From NCBI GenBank assembly GCA_963576725.1, contig OY755237.1, positions 68,341,472-68,405,471 on the forward strand: a stretch of DNA of 64,000 nt, given 5' to 3'. How positions within the stretch are numbered: the stretch's first letter is position 1; every line of letters begins with the position of its first letter. The position numbers and the translations under genes are program-made. Shown piece after piece: positions 3,521 to 62,342 of the stretch. The DNA comes from Azorinus chamasolen (Eukaryota > Mollusca > Bivalvia > Cardiida > Solecurtidae). Below the pieces are notes generated by a model. The model was not told the DNA's origin and did not search any database. It saw only the letters and a list, made by a program, of their open reading frames with translations.

Positions 3521-5248
3521 TCATTTACTGAATACTACAATATTCGACTTCCGTACATTTATATCCATAAGCCAAGAGCAACAATATCTGTAGACAATGT
3601 CAACTAGTTTCTGCAGATTCAAAGGAGATATCGCGATTAAGGAAAGATCGTCGGCAAAAGCTGGGTTACCACATTGTACTGACATTATGTTTGCTCCGTA
3701 ACTACTAGTTTCTAAAAGGTTCAGAAGCTCATCAATATACGCGAGATAGTAAAACGTGGAGAGTACACCACCCTGACGAACGCCCCGTTTTACGTAGATG
3801 ACGTCTGACTTCATGTTGCAGGTCTTGATGATGCATTTCAACTCATCGTAAGATGCTTTCAGAAGACGTAAGCATTTACCCCTAATCCCTAGACGTCCGA
3901 GCTTAACGAATAGTCGATCATGGTCTACACAGTCAAATACGGCCTTTTGATCAAGGAACGCGACGTATACGTCACTGTGACGTTCTATATTGTAATAGAT
4001 AGTTTCCTGAAGGTTAAAAGCAGTAGTCAAGCAGCTCAGATTTTTCTGGAAGCCGTGCTGCTGACAAGAGGGGAACTGTTCTACAAACCTGAGTTTGTTT
4101 CTGTTAATTCTGTTTAGCACGGCTTTTTCAAATATTTTACAAAAGCACGGCATTAAAGAGATCGGTCTAAAACTGTCTGGAGCGGTTTTACACTTTCCCT
4201 TTCCTTTGTAAACTGGAATAAGTATGCTTGTCTTCCAGTCGCTCGGTATCTTTTCGAAATGTAAGATCGTATTGAATAGGAATGTAATTGCTGTGCGGAA
4301 CGAGTTACCTGCGAATAAGACGTGCTCGTTAAGGATTCCATCGTGGCCAGGGCTTTTACGTTTAGAGAGGGATTTAACAACGCTGCCGATTTCTTCCTCG
4401 GTGTCACCGGTACTAATCTCAGAGTTTTCACGATAACAGTAACCGTTCAACTCTTCGATTAGACCTGTATTATCTACACGGTTAGCACTGAACACATTAG
4501 AGTAATGTTGTTCAAAGCCTTTTATGACATTTTCGTTACAATATGAAGTTCCATTGACGTTTAATTTCGTACAGTTCCCTGGTGGTTTCCCACTTTTCTT
4601 ACGTAGTAGTTTCCAAAACATTCTATAGTCGAGTTCCGCGGCTTTGTTGAGTTCATCGAACACTGAATTGTCGTAAGCTTCGCGATTTTTTCTCTGTGTC
4701 TTTCTAAATATTCGTTTCGCTTCTTTGTAATTCCTGTACGATTCAAATGCATTGCCACGCGGTCTACCTTCGTTAATACATACTCGTCTTTTCAGTCTGG
4801 CGTGCGCATGCGTATATTTCACTTCCTGTGACCAGTACGGTTTTGCGCGTTTATTAAAGTGGCTGGTCGGAAGTTGACGGTCCAATTCATGAAGGATAGT
4901 AACTAGCGCGGAGTTTATAACATCAGGTGTGTGTGTATAATTAGATTGATCCGAGTAGGCAATTTCTAATAGAGTTTCCAGTTGCCTTGTGACCTCGTTA
5001 CTGTAGTTTAGAAGATGCCATTCCGTGCATTTGTTCCAGGCCGTTTTGTGTCCTACTACCGGTGGCGGCATTTGTACTAGCGCCTGTTTAATTTGAAAGG
5101 TCATCGGCAGATAGTCAGAGGTAAATATATCAGTTTCACTAACGATGTCAAACGATTGAATCGAGGCTGCCGATGAGCTATCAACAAATACATAATCAAT
5201 GGTGGATCTACTAGGAATGAAGGTAAATCGGTCGCAAAGTTTAAACAT
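3521..5248 (-). pseudogene. LINE ORF2, reverse transcriptase core
   Basis: An open stretch of 575 codons. It begins in the last endonuclease motif (SRSTIDYVF, residues 14-22) and carries the RT motifs in order: SILIPVYKGKGK near 341-352, SFRPISLMPCFCKIFEK near 359-375, motif A FLDQKAVFDCVDH at 431-443, motif B RQGGVLSTFY at 491-500, and motif C FADD at 531-534. All catalytic Asp residues are present, so this segment alone could look intact. The frame ends at a TGA (3521-3523), but homologous protein sequence continues in the same frame beyond it, so the TGA is a nonsense change within a decayed ORF2. Confidence 0.9.
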
Positions 5249-14734: not shown

Positions 14735-15002
14735 AAAGTTTCGTCTAAAATATACGATAAAAGGGAAGATTTCGATTTCAAAATTGTTAATTATCCTTCT
14801 AGATGGAGATGTCCTCCGGTCTATATCTTATGGGGTTTACATTTCTCAACCTATTCGCTTTGCCCGAGCCTGTTTTTTTGCTGTTCTTTGCTAGAAGATT
14901 TTAATAGTCGTAATTTAGTTATAACTCATGAACTTTTTAAGCGAGGCTACAGATATCATAAAATTCGGAAAGCTTTTTCGGAAATATTTTAATCGAATTT
15001 TA
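14735..15002 (+). pseudogene. Naiad subfamily B RT fragment, left of insertion
   Basis: Translates as SKIYDKREDFDFKIVNYP, then RSISYGVYISQPIRFARAC and further residues with frame breaks, matching residues about 890-980 of the intact element. The strand is interrupted at 15002 by the intact subfamily A element and resumes at 19331 with the continuation LISKYKCNL. TTTTA is present on both sides (14998-15002 and 19327-19331) and may be the target duplication. Confidence 0.85.
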
Positions 15003-15371
15003 GGTGGATACAGTATGTTCAATTAAATGTTTTTTGTTATACATGCACTTTACCACTGTATTTGCTGTCGCGGTTGTTGTAGATTAGTCGGAGAGGGGAT
15101 ACGTTTATTTACACTGTTTGTCTTTTAGGATGGGGATGGAATAAGGGTGAGGTTGGGCGCCCATAAACCGGTTTAAACCCCCGGTGACTTTTGTCACTGA
15201 CCGTTCCAAGGCGGTACTTCCATCTTCCTCCTATTGAATGTTTGTTTTGTCTTTGTGCGTCTCTTGTTGTTTTTTCTACCCATGTACATTTGCTGTTTCC
15301 TTGTGTTGCTGTTCGGGCGAGTGTTTGTTCTGTATGTGGTATTTCCTGCATGACTCATTTTTGTACTTTTA
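15001..15371 (+). repeat. Upstream pseudo-LTR (subfamily A)
   Basis: Identical to 18961-19331 over all 371 bases by line-by-line comparison. It contains a GTGACTTTTGTCAC mini-hairpin and a GTTTAAACC palindrome. In Penelope-like elements this repeat supplies promoter and 3' end functions. Confidence 0.95.
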
Positions 15372-15630: not shown

Positions 15631-18600
15631 ATGAATAAAGTTAAAATACCTCGAATAGAACTAAAAGCTTTAAATATGCAATCTGTGTCGTCTGTACAAG
15701 TACCCAGAAATATTTCTAATTTCTCTTCCCTTCAACCTTTTGTTCGTTTAAAACAACTTAATCTTCAGTCGGCTTCATCTTTTCACATACCATCTCTTTC
15801 TATTAATAAATGTTTTTTCAATGGACCAAGAGTTGTACTTTCACCTTTAAAATCTGTTATCCAAAATGTTTCTTCTATTCGTAAACGGTCCTTATGCAGA
15901 CGACACAGAGTGTATCCAATTATCCAAAAGTGCTTTGCTAAGAGGTGCATATGTTGTAGTAACATTTCTTGTAATTCCACTATAAAATCTACAGTTAATG
16001 GTAGAACATTTAATGTCAAGATAAACTCAGACGTTGATTGTACTACTACTAACGTTATTTATGTTTTAACTTGAAACGCGCCTAGTTGCGGTATACAGTA
16101 CGTAGGACAAACAGGACGTGCTTTGAAAACTCGATTTCGTGAGCATGCATATCAGTGTCGAAATCGTAAACTAAGCAATTTTTTATACCAACACTTTCGG
16201 AAATCTGGCCATTCTTTTAAAGATGTTTTAGTACAAATTGTTGAGCATATAACATACGATAAGGAGGCGACTAGTAGCTTTAAATCGAAAGCTAGATTTA
16301 TATCTGAATTAAATTGGATCAAAAAATTGCAAACACCTTTTCCTTTAGGACTTAATGATAATATTTACCAGACTGGAAATATTTCAAAAGAACCAGATAT
16401 AGATATTTTTTCAATTTTTTCTATTAGAAAACGCAAATCTCGATCGCATGGCATTCGCAAGAATGGTAATATTAAACGAAAATCTCGTTTGAAATTGACT
16501 CTTCTTGATCTACATACTTTACGTCTAATTTCGGGTAAACATGCCATGCTTTCTAGACTTTCCTCCTTATCTATATGTTCATTAAAAGAAATTGACGAGC
16601 AAGCCGATAAAATTATTTTTCGATCAGATCCTCTCATAGGAACTGCTAGTTTGATACAAAGCTTTACTCTACATGTTCTCAGACCGCACATCGACAAATT
16701 ATCTGAACACCAAAGATTCTTCTTGAAAATTCCTTTTATTAATAAAGGTATTGATTTTATTGACCTACAAAGTATTTTTAGAGACAAAAATGTAATTGAC
16801 ACTATTCCTAAATACTTTAAAAATACAGAACCACCTATCATCTGCTACAAATATAACAAACCCATCAGAAATACAATTTTCAACTACAATAAAATTGTGG
16901 CCGACCTTAATATTAATGATAATATTCCTGATAATTGAGATTGCGCCACCTCAAAATTTTGCTATTCTCCGGCTGGTCATGTGATTACTGGTAATTTTGA
17001 GATAATTAAAGATAAACGTCTACGATCTCTTTTGAATAAAGGTCCCAAATATAGAATACCATCCTTGATAGATTTTAACTCTTGTCGAGTTCAGATTGCG
17101 GAGGCTTTACAAAATTTTAGTATTAAATGGTGTCGAAGAGAACATGTTGAGTCTACTGCCCTTTCTTGTTGGAAAAAACTAATTTTTGATATAATTGATA
17201 AACGCATTTCCTTTTACAGCTCTAATAAACACCTTCTTCCACCTAAACCTAGAACTTCATTTAGACATCTTAAAAAGGGTTTACAGGATTTCCATTCAAA
17301 ATACGTTTTTGTTCCTGCTGATAAGGCATCAAATAATGTGATTATTATTTGACGATTACATTATATCGATGTCTTGAAGCAGGAAATTACTAATACCAAG
17401 TCATACATTTCAGTTACCACTGACGAAAAGACCATCATTTCAGACCATGTCAAAAAGTGTGAACAATTTGGAACCGATATTAAAATTACACAACATAAAC
17501 TTCCTACTATGTATTGGTTACCAAAACTACATAAAAAACCATATAAAGCGCGTTTCATTGCAAATTCTAGTTCATGTACAACTACTAAATTGTCTATACT
17601 TTTGACTTCTTGCTTAACGAAGGTAAAGGAACATTTAATATTTTACTGTGATAAGACTTATGAAAATTCTGGAATAAATCTCTTCTGGTCTATTAAGAAC
17701 TCTTCAGAAGTCTTAAACAAACTTAAGAACAAAAGGTATCTTGCATCCACTGTAAGCACGTACGATTTTTCTACTCTGTACACAACTCTTCCTCATGTTT
17801 TAATTAAGGATAAGCTTACTAACTTGATCCAGAAAGTATTTGCCCGAGAAAAAACATCATTCTTGGCATGTAATGCTGAAAAAGCTTTCTTTACTGACGA
17901 GCAAATGAAGTATTACACCAATTGGACTTGCTCAGAAGTTTGCGAAGCACTAACCTTTCTTTTGGACAACATATTTGTACGTTATGGGAATGCTATATAC
18001 CGTCAGGTAATTGGTATTCCCATGGGTACGAATTGTGCACCACTTGTCGCAGATTTGTTTTTGTACTGCTATGAGAGAGATTTCATGTTGAGTTTGAATC
18101 CTCAATCACAAGAAGATGTTATAAAAGCCTTCAATGATACTTGTCGATATTTGGATGATATTTTTAACTTAGATAACCCTTTCTTTAATGCTCTGATTCC
18201 TACAATTTATCCTAAAGAACTCAAATTGAATAAAGCTAACCCGTCCGACAATTATGCAGCGTTTCTTGACCTAGTCCTTAAAATTAATAATGGAATGATT
18301 TCTTCTAAAATATATGACAAAAGAGATGATTTTGATTTTAATATTGTAAATTTTCCTCATCTTGACGGGGATGTTCCCCGTGCTCCATCTTACGGGGTTT
18401 ATATATCTCAACTTATTCGTTTTGCTAGAGCTTGTTCATCTATTGACGATTTTAACAGTCGAAATCTCATTTTAACTGAAAAACTGCTTAAACAAGGATA
18501 TAGATACCATAAACTAAGAAAAACTTTCTCTAAATTTTACTATCGAAATCTCTCGCTTATTGGCAAGTACAAATGTAATCTCAAGGTACTTTTGCGACAC

Positions 18601-18822
18601 GGTATTTCACATCCTGAATTTTATGGTGATGTGATTTACAAACTTCGTAGAATTATTGGACATACCCATTTTCTCACTTTGTTCATCAAATATATAAAAC
18701 AATTCATTAAAAAGGGATATGATCCTGTATTATTACAACATACTGCATGTTTGGTTGTGAACCCTTTTACAGTTGGCAATCACGCTGGCCTCTTTGCATG
18801 TACGCCGACAAGAAAGGTTTAG
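15631..18822 (+). CDS. Naiad selenoprotein: GIY-YIG endonuclease-reverse transcriptase, 1063 aa, three Sec
   Basis: One frame from ATG 15631 to TAG 18822 if three in-frame UGAs (16072, 16936, 17350) are read as selenocysteine at residues 148, 436 and 574. A Cys cluster near residue 100 (KRCICCSNISC) precedes the endonuclease: NVIYVLT-Sec-NAPSC, GIQYVG at 154-159, RFREH at 168-172, catalytic-type Glu226 in RFISELNW. The linker has Sec436-Asp-Cys438, the Naiad CxC motif with its first Cys replaced, then GHVITGNFEI. RT motifs follow: YWLPKLHK 628-635, motif A TYDFSTLYTTLP 710-721, motif B GIPMGTNCAPLVADLF from 795, motif C YLDD 840-843. The C-terminus LQHTACLVVNPFTVGN is family-typical. Each Sec lies where relatives usually have Cys. 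The alternative, three chance nonsense changes in a dead copy, is unlikely given no frameshift, no other stop, and the SECIS at the stop. Confidence 0.92.
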
Positions 18823-18884
18823 TACTCTATGAAGGCGACCTCTTAAATCCAGAAATGGAAGGAGAACGTCGGATATCTGTACTA
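18820..18884 (+). promoter_or_regulatory. SECIS element, form 2, overlapping the stop codon
   Basis: Helix I pairs TAGTAC (18820-18825, including the UAG stop) with GTACTA (18879-18884). The non-Watson-Crick quartet is UGAA (18830-18833) against GGAU (18871-18874), preceded by the usual A. Helix II is 11 pairs between 18834-18844 and 18860-18870, with two adjacent A-facing mismatches in the middle. The conserved AAA lies at 18845-18847, 12 bases after AUGA. A TCCA/TGGA mini-stem with a GAAA loop caps it, making it form 2. SECIS elements recruit SBP2 and the Sec-specific elongation factor to recode UGA. Older copies keep the fold with compensatory changes. Confidence 0.92.
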
Positions 18885-18960: not shown

Positions 18961-19331
18961 TAGGTGGATACAGTATGTTCAATTAAATGTTTTTTGTTAT
19001 ACATGCACTTTACCACTGTATTTGCTGTCGCGGTTGTTGTAGATTAGTCGGAGAGGGGATACGTTTATTTACACTGTTTGTCTTTTAGGATGGGGATGGA
19101 ATAAGGGTGAGGTTGGGCGCCCATAAACCGGTTTAAACCCCCGGTGACTTTTGTCACTGACCGTTCCAAGGCGGTACTTCCATCTTCCTCCTATTGAATG
19201 TTTGTTTTGTCTTTGTGCGTCTCTTGTTGTTTTTTCTACCCATGTACATTTGCTGTTTCCTTGTGTTGCTGTTCGGGCGAGTGTTTGTTCTGTATGTGGT
19301 ATTTCCTGCATGACTCATTTTTGTACTTTTA
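18961..19331 (+). repeat. Downstream pseudo-LTR (subfamily A)
   Basis: Exact copy of 15001-15371. Beyond it the older subfamily B copy resumes. Confidence 0.95.
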
Positions 19332-19702
19332 CCCCTCATTAGTAAATATAAATGCAATTTACGGACGTTACTGCAACAAGGTGTTTCTCACCCAAAGTTA
19401 TATGGTGATGTTCTCTACAAACAAGTTGATTGTGCAACCAATGCACTACAGAGCAGAGCAGTGATTGCACAGCGAAATACTTGTACACAGTGAAGATTTA
19501 TGTAATTATACAGCAGAGCATGTGTAAAGAAGGAGAATGTATTTTAAAATTCAGCAAGCGAAGGGTTAAACGCATTAAAACTTTTAGGAAGAAAGGTTAT
19601 GACCCTATTAATTTGCAACACACTTCGTGTTTGGTTATCGTCCCTTTTACAGTCGGTCGCTACGCTTCCCTCTTTGCTTGCACGATGACAGACCGAGGAT
19701 AG
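19332..19702 (+). pseudogene. Naiad subfamily B C-terminal region, right of insertion
   Basis: Resumes the reading interrupted at 15002: LISKYKCNL, then QQGVSHPKLYGDVLYK, a foreign insert (19424-19576), then KKGYDPINLQHTSCLVIVPF and TVGRYASLFACTMTDRG with a TAG stop at 19700-19702. The last block is the conserved C-terminus of the Naiad protein. Non-functional because of the insertions. Confidence 0.85.
19424..19576 (+). repeat. Half of a TTAA-type MITE inserted in the Naiad B relic
   Basis: The stretch from CAAGTTGATTGTGCAACCA to TTCAGCAAGCGAAGGGTTAA is a close inverted match to 53534-53680, part of the complete MITE at 53538-53781. Only one half, up to about the inner palindrome, is present here. 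Confidence 0.8.
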
Positions 19703-19764
19703 TACTCTATGATGGTATACTGTTAAACCCAGAAATAGGATGAGCTTACCAGACTCATGTACTA
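19700..19764 (+). promoter_or_regulatory. SECIS element of Naiad subfamily B
   Basis: Same layout as at 18820: TAGTAC/GTACTA helix I starting on the stop codon, AUGAU (19709-19713) against AGAC (19751-19754), an 11-position helix II (19714-19724 with 19740-19750), AAA at 19725-19727, and a CCCA-GAAA-TAGG cap. Helix II positions 2-4 pair as G-C, U-A, A-U here against G-U, C-G, G-C in subfamily A, which is compensatory change. Confidence 0.85.
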
Positions 19765-20320
19765 CCTTTTCTCTGTCGTGCCCTTAACGGCTTCCCTGCA
19801 GTTGCTCTGTCTTCAGCAAATTCATTGAGTACATATTTGAAGAACTTTCATAGTTGTTATACTATGTTTTACATTTTGTACTGTGATTACTGTCTTCTAT
19901 GTTGTGGGAAAGTCCGGCGGGGATACCTTTATTTACAATGTTTGTTAAGCTAGGGTGTAAGGTTAGGACGTCCGTAAACCCCCATTGGTGATTTTGCTAC
20001 TGACCGTCCCAAGGCGGTACTCTCTTTGTCACCCTTACTTTTGTTTGTCTTGTGTCTTTGTACTTGTGCTTTTGTTCATGTTTGTCTCTGGTGTTTGTGT
20101 GTTTGTTGGTGTTTTCTGTGTTCTCGTGTGTGTGTGTGTGTGTTTGTTTATGTGCTTGTGTGTGACATGCTGTCTATTGATGTGTTGGTGGTGGTTGCGT
20201 CTTGTATGGGGTTTTCTCCTGTATGTGTATGTGTATAAATTGCCATATAAATGCTTTCTGTCGGTGTTTTGGTGATGGTGGCGTTTTGTGTGTGGTTTTT
20301 CCTGCTTGACTGAACTACCT
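19765..20320 (+). repeat. Naiad subfamily B 3' UTR and pseudo-LTR
   Basis: After the SECIS the 3' UTR runs to about 19890, followed by a diverged pseudo-LTR: GGGGATACCTTTATTTACAA, TGACCGTCCCAAGGCGGTAC, then a TG-rich tract (20085-20165). A partial second copy of its tail follows at 20240-20320. The related copies are at 28550, 38540, 45810 (minus), 49510 (minus) and 55806 (minus). Confidence 0.75.
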
Positions 20321-22094: not shown

Positions 22095-22275
22095 GTGATA
22101 TTTGTCACTGACCGTTCCAAGGCGGTACTTCCATCTTCCCCTATTGTTTGTTTGTTATGTCTTTGTGCGTCTCTCTGTGTCTTTTACATGTATATTTACT
22201 GTTTGTTGTCGTTGTGCTGTTCGGGCGGTTGTGTGTTCTGTATGCGGTGTTTTCTGCATGACTAATACATGTACT
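22095..22275 (+). repeat. Naiad A pseudo-LTR fragment
   Basis: Begins inside the pseudo-LTR at the TTGTCACTGACCGTTCCAAG block and runs to TTTCTGCATGACT, about 80 to 90 percent like the 3' half of 15001-15371 by eye. Frames across it are not genes. Confidence 0.8.
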
Positions 22276-26619: not shown

Positions 26620-27536
26620 ACTAAACTTGAAAATGAGCTCTTATGATTTCTATACACTCTATACTACCTCGCCATCTTATAAAGGATAAACTGATTAAAA
26701 TAAAAGAAGAAAACCTTTTCCAGAGAAAATGAAATATTCCTTGCTTGTAATGTTCAACGTTCAATCTTGGAACATTACATAATGTGAACTTTGCTTGAGG
26801 TTTGTACAACTCTAACCTTTCTTTTAGATAACGTAACTGTGTGCTATAGGGATACTACATATCGTCCAGTTGTTGGTGTACCTATAGGTACAAGTTGTGC
26901 CCCCTTGTTGCAGATTTGTTTTGCATTGCTATGAGAGGGGTTTATACTTAGCTTAAAACCTGATACACTACCTGATATTGTTGAATGCTTTTAAAACAAC
27001 TTCTAGATATTTTGAATATCTAGGTATCTAGGAGATATTTTGAATTTGGATAATCCTTTTTTTGAAACTATGGTTTCTTCTATTTACCCAAAAGAACTGT
27101 CTTGTTCGATTGCACGATTAAACACTGGAATGAATTTATTATTTCTTAATTAGGGCTTCCTTGTTAGATTCGAATCGTTCCTACCTAGATGATAAAGTTT
27201 CATCCGAAATATAAGATAAGAGGGAAAACTTTAATTTCAAAATTGTTACTTATCCCTTTCGAGATGGAGATTTGCCCCGTTCTATATCTCATGGAGTTTA
27301 CATTTCTCAACTTATTCGTTTACTCGAGCCTGTTCTTGACTAGAATATTTAAAAGTTGTAATTTAATTATAAAATTATAGCTATTAAATTTCTTAAGCAG
27401 GATTACATATAGCACAACGTTTGGAAAGTTTTTTCTAAATTTTATTATCGAAATTTACCTCTCATTAGTAAATATAATTGCAATCTACGGCCGTTACAGC
27501 AACACGGTATTTCACGCAGAGTTATATGGTGATGAT
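26620..27536 (+). pseudogene. Naiad subfamily B RT relic
   Basis: Broken frames give LPHLIKDKLIKIK, then VVGVPIGTSCAP (motif B), then SRYLGDILNLDNPFFETMV (motif C region), SSIYPKEL, KIYDKRENFNFKIV, SHGVYISQLIR and LISKYNCNL. Motif C reads YLGD where the intact element has YLDD. Many stops and frameshifts. The strand switches to subfamily A sequence near 27537. Confidence 0.8.
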
Positions 27537-28190
27537 ATCTCACTTTGTTCACTAAATACATTAACAAATCATTAAAAAAGGGATATGATCCTATGGTACT
27601 ACAACATACTGCATGTCTGGTTAGCAGCCCCTTTTATAGTTGGCAATCACGCTGCCCTCTTTGCATGTACGCCGACAAGAAAGGTTTAGTACTCTATAAA
27701 GGCGACATGTTAAATCCGGAAACGGAAAGAGGATGTCTGATATTTGTACTGATCTCTCGTGTTTGTCGTACCCTTTATTACTTTTCTACGGTTACTCTGT
27801 TTGCAGCTCAATTATTGAGTACACTAGCGATAGGTGGATACGGTTGTTTTGCTTAAATATATTTTCGTTTTACATGCACTTTACCCACATTATTTGCCAT
27901 CGCGGTTGTTGTAGATTAGTCGGAGAGGGTATATGTGTATTTACACTGTTTGTCCTTTAGGGTGGGGATGGAATAAGTGTGAGGTTGGGCGCCCCTAAAC
28001 CGGTTTAACCCCCAGTGACATTTGGCATTGACCGGTCCAAGGTGGTACTTCCATATCCTATTGTTTATCTTTGTGCGTCCCTCTATCTTTTATATACATG
28101 TACATTTGCTGTCTGTCTTCATGGTGCTGTTTAGGCGGTTGTGAGTGTTGTATACGGTGTTTCCTGCATGAATTATACATGTACTTTAAG
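27537..28190 (+). mobile_element. 5'-truncated Naiad A copy
   Basis: Starts in the C-terminal region (KKGYDPMVLQHTACLV), shifts frame, passes a decayed SECIS (27687-27751) and ends with a subfamily A pseudo-LTR from about 27831 to 28190. It appears inserted in the subfamily B copy that continues at 28195. Confidence 0.8.
27687..27751 (+). promoter_or_regulatory. Decayed SECIS element
   Basis: Same order of parts as at 18820, starting on the UAG, and with a TCCG-GAAA-CGGA cap. The core AUGA has become AUAA (27696-27699), which should abolish function. Confidence 0.75.
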
Positions 28191-28194
28191 GAAT

Positions 28195-28960
28195 TGTTTT
28201 AAGTTTATTAAATGCAATAAATGTTCTACGAAGAAAGGCTATGACGCCATTATAATGCAACGCACTGCAAATGTGGTTATTGACCCCTTTACAGCCTGTC
28301 GCTACGCGCTTTCCACTTAGCTTGCACGATGTCAGGCCGAGGGTAGTACTCTATGATGGTATAATCTTAAGCCCAGAAACGGGATGAGTCTACCAGACTC
28401 ATATATTGTCTTTTATCTGTCGTGCCATTAACGGTTTCCCTGGAGTTGCTCTGATTTCAGCAAAGTCATTTAGTACATATTTGACGGACTTTCACAGTTG
28501 TTGTCATGCTATGTTTTTTCATATTATCCTGTGTTTACCGTCTGCTATGGTATGGGGAAGTCCGGCGTAGATACCTATATTAAACTGTTTGTTAAACTAG
28601 AACGACCTTGAGATAAGTGTGAGTTTAGGATGTCCGTAAACCGCTTTAACCCTTAGTTGCGGTTTTGCTACTGACCGTTCTAATGCGGTATTTTCTTTGC
28701 CACCATTATTTCTATGCTTGTCCTATGTCTTATTGGTCTTGTACTTGCACGTTTGTTGATATTTGAAGTTATCATCTCTTCAGTATTGCATGTGTATGTG
28801 CATGTGCGTGCGTGCGTTCGTACGTGTGTGCATGCGTGCGTGCCTGTGGGCGTTTGTTTGCAGTTGTGTGTGTCTCACTTATTTTCTATCGATAGTTTAG
28901 TAAGGGATGTCTCTTGTTTGTGGCTTTTACTGCTTGGCTATACATGTACTACTTTTTCAT
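28195..28960 (+). pseudogene. Naiad subfamily B tail with SECIS and pseudo-LTR
   Basis: STKKGYDAIIMQRTANVV is the conserved C-terminus. It is followed by a SECIS-like hairpin at 28344-28406, a 3' UTR and a subfamily B pseudo-LTR from about 28550 that includes a TGCGTG-rich tract (28790-28870). Confidence 0.75.
28344..28406 (+). promoter_or_regulatory. SECIS-like hairpin, subfamily B
   Basis: AUGAU (28353-28357) and AGAC (28395-28398) form the quartet, with a GGTATAATCTT/ATGAGTCTACC helix. The apical AAA has become AAG, and the cap is CCCA-GAAA-CGGG. Helix I is eroded on its 3' side. Confidence 0.7.
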
Positions 28961-37359: not shown

Positions 37360-38240
37360 AGAGCACACTTTATTCTTCTGTTGACGATTTTAATAGTCGA
37401 AATCTCGTTTCAACAGAAAAGCTGCTTAAGCAAGGATATAGATATCATAAACCAAGAAAAACATTCTGTAAATTTTATTATCGAAATCTCTCACTTATTA
37501 GCAAGTACAAATGCAATATTAAGGCACTCCTACGACACAGTATTTCACATCCAGAATGTTATGGTGATGTGATTAACAAACTTCGTAAAAAAATCGGAAA
37601 TACCCATTTTCTCAATTTGTCCATCAAATACTTTGAAAATATTCATTAAACAGGGATATGATCCTATAGTACTACAACATTCTGCATGTCTGGTTGTCAA
37701 CTCTTTTACAGTTGGCAATCGCGTTGCCCTCTTTTCATGTACGCCTACAAGAAAGGTTTAGTACTTTATGAAGACGATCTGTTAAATCCGGAAACGGAAG
37801 GAGGACGTCGGATCTTTCTACAGTTACTCTGTTTGCTGCTCAATTGTTGGGTACACTAGCGTTAGATGAATACAGTTTGTTTTACTTAAATATGTTTTCG
37901 ATTTACATGCAGCTTACCACTGTATTTGCCATCGCGGTTATTGTAGATAGGTCGGAGAGAGGATACGTTAATTTACACTGTCTGTCTTTTAGGGCAGGGA
38001 TGGACTAAGTGTGAGGTTGGGCACCCCATGCACCGGTTTAACCTCCAAGTGACTATTGTCTCTGACCGTTCCAAGGCGTTACTTCCATCATCCCCATAGT
38101 GTTTGTTTGTTTTGTCTTTGTGCGTCTCTTTTTGATTTGATAGTTATGTAAATGTGCTGTGTTTCTTGTGGTGGTGCTGTTCGGGCGGCCCTTTTGTATG
38201 TGCTGTTCCCTTCATGACTCATATGTGTACTTTTATGTTA
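37360..38240 (+). mobile_element. 5'-truncated Naiad A copy
   Basis: Begins near DDFNSRNLVSTEKLLKQGYR and keeps about 85 codons open through HFLNLSIKYFENIH. It then shifts frame (a TGA lies in TGATATGATCC context) into the FACT-type C-terminus, a SECIS at 37759 and a pseudo-LTR from about 37860. About 45 bases of 3' UTR after the SECIS are deleted relative to the intact element. Confidence 0.85.
37759..37820 (+). promoter_or_regulatory. SECIS element, helix I 3' strand deleted
   Basis: AUGAA (37768-37772), helix II 37773-37783 with 37799-37809, AAA at 37784-37786, TCCG-GAAA-CGGA cap, and GGAU at 37810-37813. The cap base pair A-U of 18820 is G-C here, and helix II pair 2 is A-U instead of G-U. 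A deletion after GGAUCU removed the partner of helix I. Confidence 0.85.
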
Positions 38241-56567: not shown

Positions 56568-58600
56568 TTATAAATGTGTGGACTGCTTTAAAAATAGTTC
56601 GTTTGCTGCTAGTGAGAGAGTTGGACTTCCATAGAGAAGAATGTTGGTGGTAGCAGTACAGACGGAGCAGAGTACATTAAGGAGATTGGTCCTGATAGTT
56701 TGGTACCTTGGACAAATGAAATAGTGATTAGCACTATCTATATCTCCACACTGGCATAAGGGAGAATCAACAATGTTTTTATTAAATAAACATAGATTAT
56801 ACAGGGAACTACAATTAGTTCGAAGGCGTGTGTGGAGCATTTGGGTTTTGCGGTCTCCAATGTAATAGTATGGGGGTCTTTCAGTGGTGCTTGGGGAAAT
56901 AAGCTGTTTGAAAGTGTTAATAGATACAGTGTTTCTAATTTCTGGAGAGAGCGCGTTCCATTGTCGGACAACAGTGGGTAAGAAAGAGTTATAGTACAAT
57001 TGAGATCTGCAGCGAATTGAAAGAATATTGTCAGAATTTTTCAGATTATAGGATGATGTATCGCTTACTAGATCTGGAACGAGCTGTGTAAGGTAATGTG
57101 GGGTGTTATTATTTACCATTTTATGGAAAAGTATAAGTTTGTGATTAGTTCTTCTTTTATCAAGAGATTGCCATCCAGTTTCCTTTTGAAGCTCATTTAA
57201 TGAAATTAGTCTGGTGGCACCTATGGCAATTCGAGCTGCCTCATTTTGTATTTTTTCAAGTTCTTGCTTTTCGTAATACGTACAATTGTCCCATATAACA
57301 TCGGCATATTCAAGTAATGGTCTTATAGAACTGGTATAAATTATCTCAAGAGATTTCCTGTCTAATTTATATTTTAACCTGCGCATAATATGTATCCGTT
57401 TCCACGCTGTAGTTTTGATGTAGTCAATATGTGAGTGCCAGGAGCCATCATTTGATAGAAACACGCCTAAGTGTTTGTGAGTTTCAACTTTGGAAATATT
57501 CTCGTTTAGCATAATTAGGGTAGGGTGATGTGGTTGATTTCTTTTTCGCGAGATAATGAGAGATTCTATTTTTGAGGGATTGAAAGTTACAAGCCAGGAT
57601 TCTGCCCAATTTGTAATTTTAGTTATGTCATTTTGAAGGATGGTTGCCGTAGTTTCGGCATGATCGACAATTAAATATAAGTTAGTATCGTCCGCAAATA
57701 ATCGAATGTTAGAGGGGATGTCGTTTACTATGTCATTAATATATATCAAGAACATAAGTGGTCCTAGAATTGAGCCCTGTGGAACCCCTCCAGGTATAAC
57801 AACCCTTTGTTTTCTGTTGTCTAGGTAACTTGAAAACCAGATAAGAAGTTGATCAGACATGCCAGCACTTTTCAGTTTTGATAATAGCCCCTTATGCCAA
57901 ACCCTATCAAAAGCCTTACTGATGTCAAAAAATAATACTCTTATTTCCATTCCGTCATCTAAAGCTTTGCAGAAGGCATTGTATAAGAAAGTAAGTTGGT
58001 TAACAGGAGAGTCTCCCGGGATAAAACCGGATTGGTATTGTGAAAGAAACTGGCTATCTCTAAGAAAGTTATACGTCTGCTTAAAAATTATTCTTTCAAA
58101 TTCTTTATCAAGATTGCTGAGAAGGGAAATCGGACGATAGTTCGATACACCTTTTTTATATACAGCGCATACATTTGCTTCTTTCCAAGACAAGGGAACG
58201 GTCCCTTCATTTAGGGATTTGTTAAATAAAATACTAAGGGGGACACTCAACTCTCTAGCTAATTCGCGTAATATGCGATTGTTAATATCGTCCGGACCAG
58301 ATGCTTTCCCTAAAGGGAGACTTTCTAAAATAGATTGTACTTCCTCAGGTGTCACTGTGAAAATTGGCATGGCAGAATTGCTCGGTTCAAGAAAGGGCAC
58401 TTGGATATTTCTCTCTTCAAGAAGAGTTTGATTAGTAAAGAAATTGTTTAATAAATCTGCTTTTGCAGTTGCATCTGTTGCAACAGTCGAATTGTAAGAA
58501 AGAGTGGGAATTTGCGGTAGATCATTAGGGGATATAAAGGATTTAAGTGTTTTCCACCAGTCACGCGAGGACATGTTTAAGCGAGATGTTATTATAATAA
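56568..58600 (-). pseudogene. LINE ORF2 reverse transcriptase and zinc knuckle
   Basis: An open stretch of about 675 codons. Counting from the Met at 58637: KASGPDDINNRIL near 111-123, VYKKGVSNYRPISLLS near 159-174 (a few residues shorter than usual between KKG and NYRP), QYQSGFIPGDSPVNQL near 200-215, motif A FFDISKAFDRVWH 236-248, motif B GVPQGSILGPLMF 284-296, and motif C FADD 314-317. The C-terminus carries CQCGDIDSANHYFICPRY, a CxC...H...C knuckle. All catalytic Asp residues remain. It is the RT half of a broken ORF2, so it is marked pseudogene although this segment has no stop. Confidence 0.88.
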
Positions 58601-58940
58601 GAATCTTTACACTCACGAATAAGGCGTGTAACTTCATTTCTGAGTTTCCTAAATTTTTCCCAGTGGTATAAGGAGTTTGTAGATTTTGCTTTCTTGTATT
58701 GCCTTTTTCTGGCCCTGATTTTTGTTTTAAAAGGGATGTTATCCATGGTGGCTCAAAGGGTCTAATACGAATGACTTTATTTGGTTTGCATTCTCCTGAG
58801 ATTTTTAGTATTTTATCAGTTAAGTCTATGTTAAATGTATCTATATCGTCATTTTGAAATTCAGTCCAATTTATAGCTGTGGCTTTATTACGTAAGAGGT
58901 CATAATTACCGTTTTCATATTTCCAAAGTTTCCTGGTAAC
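58561..58940 (-). pseudogene. LINE ORF2 linker between endonuclease and RT
   Basis: In-frame continuation to IRPFEPPWITSLLK, a frameshift near 58735, then ARKRQYKKAKSTNSLYHWEK and VTRLIRECKDSYYNN, the basic helical linker usual before LINE RT. A second frameshift near 58587 returns to the RT frame. Confidence 0.75.
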
Positions 58941-60205: not shown

Positions 60206-61024
60206 TTACCTTGAAAGAACTGTCCTTAACGAGTATTGTGCCATCTGAGGACCAGCAACTGTGTATTTTTTCTGTTTCATGAGTAGCCTGGCAGTGTAGA
60301 GGGCGGCACTTCTGCTTTTTGTGAGGTCTTCATTAAAGAATACACCCCTATAGCCTGTGTTCTTCAGACCAGCTCTGGCCTTGTATATTCTCTGCCTGGC
60401 GCGATACGTTGCGAATTTAATAATTATCTGACGGGGATTTCCAGACGGTTTTCCAATGCGATGGCTTCTATCTATGTCACGAAGGTCCATCTGTACATTC
60501 AGTGCCTTACATATTTTGATGACGGCGTCATCTGTGTTTTCATCGGGTGCTTCAGGTATTCCAGAAAGACGCATACAGTTTCGTCTGCTGTACTGCTCTG
60601 CGGTGTCGGCCTTCTGCTCTAGTTGACAAATGCGAGCTCTGAGCCCCGCGTTTTCGTTTGTGAGACGTAAGTTGGAGTCCTCCAGTGATTTCAGTCTAGC
60701 AAAGAGACCGTCAAGAAAACCGTCGACGATGGCCTTTGTTTGATTTGAAGCAATGCTAGTGACCATATCTCCATTTGCTGCCAAGTCGTCCGAGCTGAGA
60801 GATAATTTGCAGGATGAGGGTGGTAAAGATTCAGTACCGGATTGATCCATGTCAGCCATCTCGATATTGGCGTTGGAATAAGGCTTCTTCGGTTCTATGT
60901 CGTCGAAAGGGGACTGTAACGGTCGTTTCTTGGAATTCTGTTGCAAAGGGGTAACTGGTGAGAATTCACTGACACTCATAATAATAAACAATAATAAATA
61001 GAGAGTACGATGTGTTTTGAGCAC
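60206..61024 (-). CDS. LINE ORF1 protein, coiled coil plus RRM-like domain
   Basis: A 272-codon open frame. The Met at 60979 (MSVSEFSPVTPLQQ) is a more likely start than the upstream Met at 61024, because the intervening residues are hydrophobic and unlike the family; that gives about 257 residues. It has a Ser/Asp-rich N-terminal tail, a coiled coil around FARLKSLEDSNLRLTNENAG and LEQKADTAEQYSRR, and then the L1-ORF1-like RNA-binding fold: NCMRLSGIPEAPDENTDDAV, DIDRSHRIGKPSGNPRQIII, VFFNEDLTKSRS. In known elements this trimerises and binds element RNA. It looks undamaged. Confidence 0.85.
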   Translation of the reverse strand: MLKTHRTLYLLLFIIMSVSEFSPVTPLQQNSKKRPLQSPFDDIEPKKPYSNANIEMADMDQSGTESLPPSSCKLSLSSDDLAANGDMVTSIASNQTKAIVDGFLDGLFARLKSLEDSNLRLTNENAGLRARICQLEQKADTAEQYSRRNCMRLSGIPEAPDENTDDAVIKICKALNVQMDLRDIDRSHRIGKPSGNPRQIIIKFATYRARQRIYKARAGLKNTGYRGVFFNEDLTKSRSAALYTARLLMKQKKYTVAGPQMAQYSLRTVLSR

Positions 61025-62342
61025 ACCCCTAACTAGGCCTATATCACTGCCTAGGAAAATGTCCGATGTTCAACGAAGCGTAACTCTATTTGACGAAAAT
61101 ATTTAAATTCCAAACAGAGAAAACTGGCATTTCCAACCTTTTTCTGTTCAACAGTTCCAACTCAAAATCCAGAAGTAAGCATTTCCAATCTCCGCACATA
61201 AATTTTATCCTTCCTTAGGTCGTAGAAATCACATGTTTTTTAAAAATCTGAGGAATAGGTAGAGTGGACCCACCAAGTACGATCACGTGGCCCTCGTTCA
61301 GTAGGTATTTAAATTTGGAATGTACATAGAACAGGGAAAGGGTTAAAAGAGTTGTCTAAGGTCATATGATACTTATTGTGGTGATTGTCGTATTATCTCA
61401 ATTCTTCTCTAAATGGACACGTCTTGGCTGGCATTTGCAAAAAGCTGAGATCCACTGAGAATGAGACGCCGAGTATCTCGACGTCTCATCAGAACCCAAT
61501 CTGTTTGACACTCGGTCAATAGTTTCTCAAAGGATTGAACGAATCGGAAAATAGGAAACAGCCATCAAATCAGAGGTTGAACAGACATTGTTTTTCAGTA
61601 TTAGAACGGTAAAGTCACCGTTGTTGATTGAAAGTACATAATAATGAATACAGAGATAAGTGATACATACATAATTGCTTGCAAACTAACACATTTGACA
61701 TGGTCACTATCATGCAAAACGATACTCTTAGGCACCAATTGACTGATATTATTCAAAACGATCTATTATGACATTGCATTATGTTATATCAAAGGGATTG
61801 TGATGTAGCCGATATTTGCAAACATGAATAATTGATGATGCATTATCAATTATATGTCATGGAATAAATGTATGACAAACACATCTATGGTAAGCCTTCA
61901 TATTTTGATATACGATGTTAACTCTTTCGCTGCTAATGCCGTATTTGTAGTAGTTTGGATCCTGTTGAGACGCCGGCGAACTGGTTGTCTATTCAGAATC
62001 CAAACTATGAGTTACTGTGACTATTGTTTAAACAAAACTGGAAATTGTAGCAGACGACAGAGTTGGCAGTGAACGAATTATAATGACATTCATTGGGTAG
62101 CAGCCGATGCAGATTCCTGGCATTTGTAATCTTTTTGATTTGTATTTTTTTTTCTTATTTTGCTATAGGCACACCAAATTAAATATACTTTTATATTTCC
62201 GCCAAAACACCTTTCACTGGCCAATTAAACATGGTCACTATGATGTGTTGCTAGTTGGTCTCATGCTGAATGTTTTCCTTGTTTACAAACAACGGTGTTA
62301 TCAATTTACCGCGTGGATATTAATGTAAACCATAATGACATA
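61025..62342. other. Non-coding stretch with palindromes
   Basis: LINE 5' leader candidate up to about 61250. An AGGGAAAGGGTTAA MITE terminus lies at 61332-61346. Dispersed palindromes are at 61440-61505 (GAGACGCCGAG/CTCGACGTCTC) and 61950-62010 (GTTTGGATCCTG/CAGAATCCAAAC). No gene. Confidence 0.5.

Follow-up and report, generated by a model that had tools for sequence, protein, structure and literature searches.

An open reading frame of 1063 codons that is broken three times by UGA may be the remnant of a dead retrotransposon or the gene of a selenoprotein. We asked which of these applies to such a frame in the window, the 64 kb stretch of DNA analyzed here as a whole. The frame starts with ATG at 15631, ends with UAG at 18820-18822 and is free of frameshifts, and its only internal stops are the UGA codons at 16072, 16936 and 17350, exactly where the first-pass annotation had placed them. 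A recount of the stops gave 3 UGA, no UAA and the single terminal UAG in this frame; the other two forward frames contain 60 and 131.

The full window protein (P0001) was used as the query of a homologue search, which returned 349 matches, and residue counts per column were taken from the best 120 of these 349. In the alignment to these homologues, Cys predominates opposite all three UGA codons, with the following coordinates and counts.

15631-18822, plus strand: single ORF for the EN-RT protein, 1063 codons, translated with TGA as U; 349 homologues
16072-16074, plus strand: UGA, predicted Sec148 in the EN domain; Cys in 41/43 homologues covering the column
16936-16938, plus strand: UGA, predicted Sec436 opening the CxC motif that links EN and RT and that would read U436-D-C438, with Sec replacing the first Cys; Cys in 96/100 homologues, W in 4/100
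17350-17352, plus strand: UGA, predicted Sec574 in the RT 'PADKAxNN' region; Cys in 108/116 homologues, W in 7 and D in 1

Among the 932 columns covered by at least 20 of the best 120 homologues, just 12 carry Cys in 85% or more of the homologues, and all three UGA sites belong to these 12. The chance that three UGAs fall on such Cys-rich columns was 1.6e-6 for random columns and 1.7e-5 for random single-base changes that make stops. C438, the second Cys of the linker motif, is kept in 100/100 of the homologues in this set, and column 137, at which the window copy also has Cys, shows Cys in 40/40. In the window ORF itself, Cys is encoded by TGT 20 times and by TGC 11 times, and TGA occurs 3 times.

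A second homologue search with residues 1-435 of the window protein gave 273 matches. Among the best 120 of these 273, 62 proteins end exactly at residue 435, 42 end exactly at residue 573 and 16 end elsewhere, and all 42 ending at 573 carry Cys at 436. The relatives with shared ends are 49-86% identical to the window protein. Column 148 is spanned by just five of the best 120 of 273, four with W and one with Cys, and the commonest projected starts in this set lie at 155 (42 rows), 185 (15), 158 (9), 175 (9) and 165 (8). A gene caller set to code 4 is expected to render TGA as W. When conserved Trp columns are left aside, the W residues of the 14 rows in question lie at columns 137, 148, 436 and 574, with exceptions at columns 324, 335, 735 and 910 in P0006, P0010, P0013 and P0251. 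Thus, at the level of proteins, the shared ends and the W residues point to UGA codons in the relatives, and gene callers seem to split such proteins at UGA or to misread UGA as Trp. The W residues at 137 were counted only in rows that also have W at 148, 436 or 574; because W occurs there and the homologues have an invariant Cys in this column, 137 is likely a fourth Sec site in the relatives P0263, P0292, P0298 and P0328.

We built a quick tree, with SH-aLRT as the only branch support, from 172 of 241 rows (P0001 and 240 listed matches, namely the best 120 of 349 and the best 120 of 273). We excluded rows that aligned over fewer than 200 residues within 155-430, including 2 of the 42 rows ending at 573. 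A single branch with SH-aLRT 99 sets 55 cysteine Naiads apart from a clade of 117 rows; the window copy belongs to this clade, and the other rows in it are 47-86% identical to the window copy. Of the 104 rows ending at 435 or 573, 102 were placed in the tree (62 and 40, respectively), all inside the 117-row clade. When the state at 436 was scored from C, W or a protein end at 435, the clade comprised 67 rows with stop or W, 44 with Cys and 6 without a call. The cysteine Naiads (for example P0093 of Pinctada imbricata, P0023, P0028) share the domain order and the conserved Cys columns with the window protein but differ from it in that the rows outside the clade have Cys at 436 (55/55) and at 148 (41/41 determinable rows). 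The other 14 of the 55 outside rows were not determinable at 148, and 10 of them start just after this column. Starts just after 148 are found in 103/117 clade rows and also in these 10/55 outside rows, so such a start alone is weak evidence of a stop. The Sec/Cys label at 436 changes 19 times on the tree, at least 12 of which are forced by starred branches. The long branches of P0006 and P0021 meet at the root of the clade, and therefore its exact edge is uncertain. Judged from this distribution, the UGA stops look inherited across the clade.

A putative form-2 SECIS, for which the first-pass annotation had given no position, starts at the UAG stop of the ORF; it was compared with the corresponding regions of other Naiad copies in the window.

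18820-18884, plus strand: putative form-2 SECIS of the element; Rfam SECIS_1 26.0 bits, MFE z -2.33, covariation
19700-19764, plus strand: SECIS-like stretch in the right half of the older Naiad copy (19696 copy), from the alignment of copies
27687-27751, plus strand: SECIS-region copy of a decayed Naiad with quartet AUAA (27683 copy), from the alignment of copies
28344-28408, plus strand: SECIS-region copy of a decayed Naiad (28340 copy), from the alignment of copies and a pattern scan
37759-37822, plus strand: SECIS-region copy in the Naiad fragment 37370-38234 (37755 copy), from the alignment of copies

The form-2 SECIS consensus comprises helix I, an AUGA/GA quartet, AA(A) some 12 nt further on, and helix III, and all these features are present in the window element. 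Helix I (18820-18825/18879-18884) contains the UAG stop of the ORF, the AUGA quartet at 18829-18832 lies opposite GGAU at 18871-18874, AAA is located at 18845-18847, and helix III is capped by GAAA. The minimum free energy fold contains helices I and II, the latter formed around the AUGA/GGAU loop, together with the AAA and the GAAA-capped helix III, with a moderately unusual free energy (8/200 shuffles were equally low). Rfam SECIS_1 (RF00031) matches 18821-18883 with a score under its gathering score of 35, a curated threshold and not a functional feature, and SECIS_5 matches there too with 18.4. The Rfam search of the whole window at gathering scores gave no matches. At E up to 10, SECIS_1 at 18821-18883 was the sole SECIS match in the whole window (E 0.94, computed over 4227 families), and most matches were microRNA families under their gathering scores. 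In a search of 301 bases, SECIS_1 also matched 19701-19763 (14.1 bits, E 7.7).

In the five related window copies, a small sample, 87.2% of the cells in 19 pairs are paired, and both sides have changed in 5 pairs (9 cells); six slid controls gave 30-48% paired cells and 0-1 both-sided pairs. Of 500 letter shuffles, 35 reached the observed both-sided pairs, 443 the pair types and none the other three measures. The lowest-energy fold is SECIS-like in two of the five copies, the element's own and the 27683 copy, the latter of which folds in this way yet has lost the AUGA quartet; such a fold is absent in the 37755, 19696 and 28340 copies. A crude SECIS pattern scan over both strands of the 64 kb gave 9 matches vs 1-6 in 20 first-order Markov shuffles and a top score of 16 vs 14-17. 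Two of the matches are on the plus strand (18829 and 28353), both in Naiad copies, and seven are on the minus strand. The scan is unspecific and was therefore excluded from the evidence. We regard the window element as a putative SECIS in the sense that it would work like one. All 13 homologues keeping the [NA]CTP C-terminus among the best 120 of 349 end with SDSMM.[PS]T, which may be the SECIS 5′ arm translated in an uninterrupted frame, with the stop on the apical-loop UAA. For a SECIS inside a reading frame there is a precedent in fowlpox GPX4, where the SECIS was functional in mammalian cells (PMC6769590).

The first-pass annotation had described the locus as a complete Penelope-like element (PLE) of the Naiad type with GIY-YIG ahead of the RT. 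This description held, as we recovered the whole ORF with a GIY-YIG domain N-terminal to a telomerase-related RT, the RT motif YLDD and identical pseudo-LTRs in a tandem layout.

14738-15000, plus strand: left half of the older decayed Naiad copy that hosts the insertion; 72% DNA identity, tblastn
15001-15371, plus strand: upstream pseudo-LTR, the 3′ end of a 5′-truncated tandem copy; 371/371 identity
15372-15630, plus strand: 5′ untranslated region of the full-length element, between pseudo-LTR and ATG
16048-16350, plus strand: GIY-YIG endonuclease domain, limits approximate and set by eye from the alignment
16849-18720, plus strand: telomerase-like reverse transcriptase region, residues ~407-1030 in the predicted model
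18148-18159, plus strand: RT catalytic motif YLDD, from the sequence
18961-19331, plus strand: 3′ end of the element and downstream pseudo-LTR; 371/371 identity
19332-19833, plus strand: right half of the older Naiad copy, carrying its own SECIS-like stretch

The GIY-YIG domain appeared as a weak match (E 0.0027) of profile positions 118-208 to I-TevI 1ln0. A Pfam scan of P0001 itself found no families, and thus the domain calls rest on the homologues, in which PF01541 was found in 21/27 and PF00078 in 17/27 aligned members, and on the fold. TERT chains took the 17 best rows in VIA-align and the 17 best in Foldseek when the predicted model was compared, suggesting a TERT-like RT fold. R839, Y840 and D842 are invariant in the alignment of homologues. 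The CxC motif, an insertion-in-fingers domain and a microsatellite insertion bias are hallmarks of Naiads; this one element has inserted into an older Naiad copy. Naiads are not known to carry a canonical hammerhead ribozyme, and none was matched in the window by Rfam at gathering scores or at E up to 10.

The pseudo-LTRs form a direct repeat with a spacing of 3960, and their complete identity indicates a recent insertion. The flanks 14738-15000 and 19332-19833 appear to be the halves of one older Naiad copy, with the break near residue 973; positions 14739-14997 are 72% identical to the 3′ part of the element's ORF at the DNA level, the tblastn match starting at 14738, and TTTT(A) is found at both junctions of the element with the older copy. 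Taken together, the identical pseudo-LTRs and the split copy around the element show that it is young and nested. This identity is compatible with the earlier proposal that the element is possibly active. The layout of the pseudo-LTRs is as described for PLEs in two reports (PMC11167929, PMC8969392). The stretch around CACTGACCGT.CCAAGGCGGTACT in the pseudo-LTRs occurs at 15184-15228, 19144-19188, 19987-20031 and 22095-22139; diverged copies of it are 71% and 96% identical to that of the element, in which it folds into two hairpins. A search with the pseudo-LTR core pattern gave 0 matches.

Plain decay, a variant code and readthrough without Sec were each weighed and turned down as the main reading. 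It is very improbable that the locus is a dead copy, that is, a decaying retrotransposon with three ordinary nonsense mutations. Other Naiad fragments of the window are decayed, and the one at 26707-27634 has 12 stops (5 TGA, 4 TAA, 3 TAG); 37374-37758 is stop-free. The first-pass annotation had named random stops of mixed type in other copies as evidence that would speak against Sec; within the window, these were found only in decayed fragments such as 26707-27634, as is expected of dead copies. None of the 12 stops in this fragment falls on a Cys of P0001, whereas the stops of the window ORF are all UGA and all at conserved Cys, with the chance probabilities given above. Moreover, a dead copy fits poorly with the young insertion, the end positions shared by relatives as distant as 49% identity, and the SECIS downstream.

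Slightly less probable still is that UGA specifies Cys instead of Sec under a variant nuclear code, as known from Euplotes. The restriction of UGA to Cys columns in the window ORF would agree with such a code. However, TGA makes up only 3 codons beside the 31 TGT and TGC codons in the same ORF, and the protein ends and W residues of the relatives fall on columns 137, 148, 436 and 574, and we observed none at the remaining eight conserved Cys. In addition, most homologues of a LINE frame of the window carry K, L or I, and not Cys, opposite its TGA at 3521-3523; together with the codon usage, this does not agree with a UGA=Cys code, which would also leave the SECIS without a role. Readthrough with another amino acid, yielding truncated and full products free of selenium, would leave much of the same DNA pattern but is no more probable than the variant code, since Sec coding predicts both a covarying SECIS and an exchange between Sec and Cys at precisely the UGA columns (12-19 changes at 436).

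The three in-frame UGAs are thus most likely Sec codons and not stops, as the earlier note had proposed and as the Cys at all sites, the ends shared within the clade and the covarying 3′ SECIS support. We consider it highly probable that the element is a recently inserted, structurally complete Naiad retrotransposon of an animal and that its single EN-RT protein is a selenoprotein decoded by the Sec machinery of the host. The SECIS at the ORF end would recruit this machinery, and host SBP2, eEFSec and tRNA-Sec would decode all three UGAs, so that Sec would replace one near-invariant Cys each in the GIY-YIG nuclease, the CxC linker and the RT. Without selenium or recruitment by the SECIS, translation would terminate at codon 148, 436 or 574, and the complete RT would be absent. 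Since a complete RT would require three recoding events, low selenium is predicted to cut RT output, and it is reasonable to suppose, with the first-pass annotation, that the mobility of the element is tied to host selenium status. A Sec-dependent polymerase would be costly to a self-copying element, as it calls for host selenium and an inefficient recoding step. A young complete copy with a SECIS and natural Sec/Cys relatives makes it testable whether Sec is a benefit, a limit or merely tolerated.

Only tentatively, and with more doubt than confidence, we suggest that Sec Naiads constitute one old clade that is frequent in public data, with as many as four Sec sites (137, 148, 436 and 574) out of 12 conserved Cys, repeated Sec/Cys swaps at 436 (at least 12) and a SECIS overlapping the ORF end. 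If this were true, Sec would not be an accident but would be maintained to control transposition in a selenium-gated manner, and termination inside the SECIS would act as feedback.

Selenoprotein Naiad PLEs were reportedly described in clams and spiders by Craig, Yushenova, Rodriguez and Arkhipova in 2021 (Mol Biol Evol 38:5005), and are said to have an N-terminal GIY-YIG, a CxC linker, a telomerase-like RT, pseudo-LTRs, several in-frame UGAs and a SECIS. The window element has the same features, the likeness being drawn from this general description and not residue by residue. Therefore, we do not claim it as a new kind of element; the selenoprotein Naiad would be an already known type, and Sec/Cys switching and the overlap of SECIS and ORF may be in the 2021 paper too. 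What may add to present knowledge are the mapping of four sites across the clade, including the likely fourth Sec site at 137 in relatives, the 12 or more Sec/Cys switches at 436 and the ORFs entering the SECIS. Among the papers listed in our literature search, none describing selenoprotein Naiads was found. Fowlpox GPX is likewise a selenoprotein, of a virus, with a functional SECIS within the ORF, and a Cys relative retains a fossil SECIS; unlike the Naiad protein, a polymerase with several Sec, it is a host-captured antioxidant enzyme with a single Sec (PMC6769590). Penelope PAc of Anolis resembles the window element in carrying RT and GIY-YIG in one ORF and in having pseudo-LTRs, but its endonuclease is C-terminal, it has a hammerhead ribozyme, and Sec goes unmentioned in the available part of the report (PMC11167929).

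Protein scans of viral contigs found no relative, and a scan of genome contigs found two loci. One (L001, NYSS01000008.1) is a Naiad of nearly full length that carries Cys at each of the three sites; its 5.9 kb contig is filed under a Planctomycetota MAG, likely as eukaryotic contamination. The other (L002) is a 31-residue fragment on a Ca. Thioglobus contig. The minus strand of the window also contains a LINE RT ORF (790 aa, 56568-58940) and an ORF1-like frame (60206-61069). Of the 120 listed homologues of the LINE RT, 21 are named by organism; 20 of these are proteins of Ca. Thiodiazotropha MAGs and one is a protein of a Sedimenticola MAG. We take these MAGs to be bins of lucinid-clam symbionts, which may hold host DNA, and the Ca. 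Thiodiazotropha matches weakly suggest host animal DNA in those bins. On whether the host is a clam or a spider, these matches in symbiont MAGs give a weak hint, at best of a bivalve-like host. Two cysteine Naiads, P0017 and P0019, have a C-terminal fusion to a ubiquitin carboxyl-terminal hydrolase (PF00443, 2/27, best E 1.2e-31). The Sec-clade fragments P0302, P0312, P0323 and P0333 fall in single 90% clusters with between 539 and 1412 sequences each, which suggests very many copies in some hosts.
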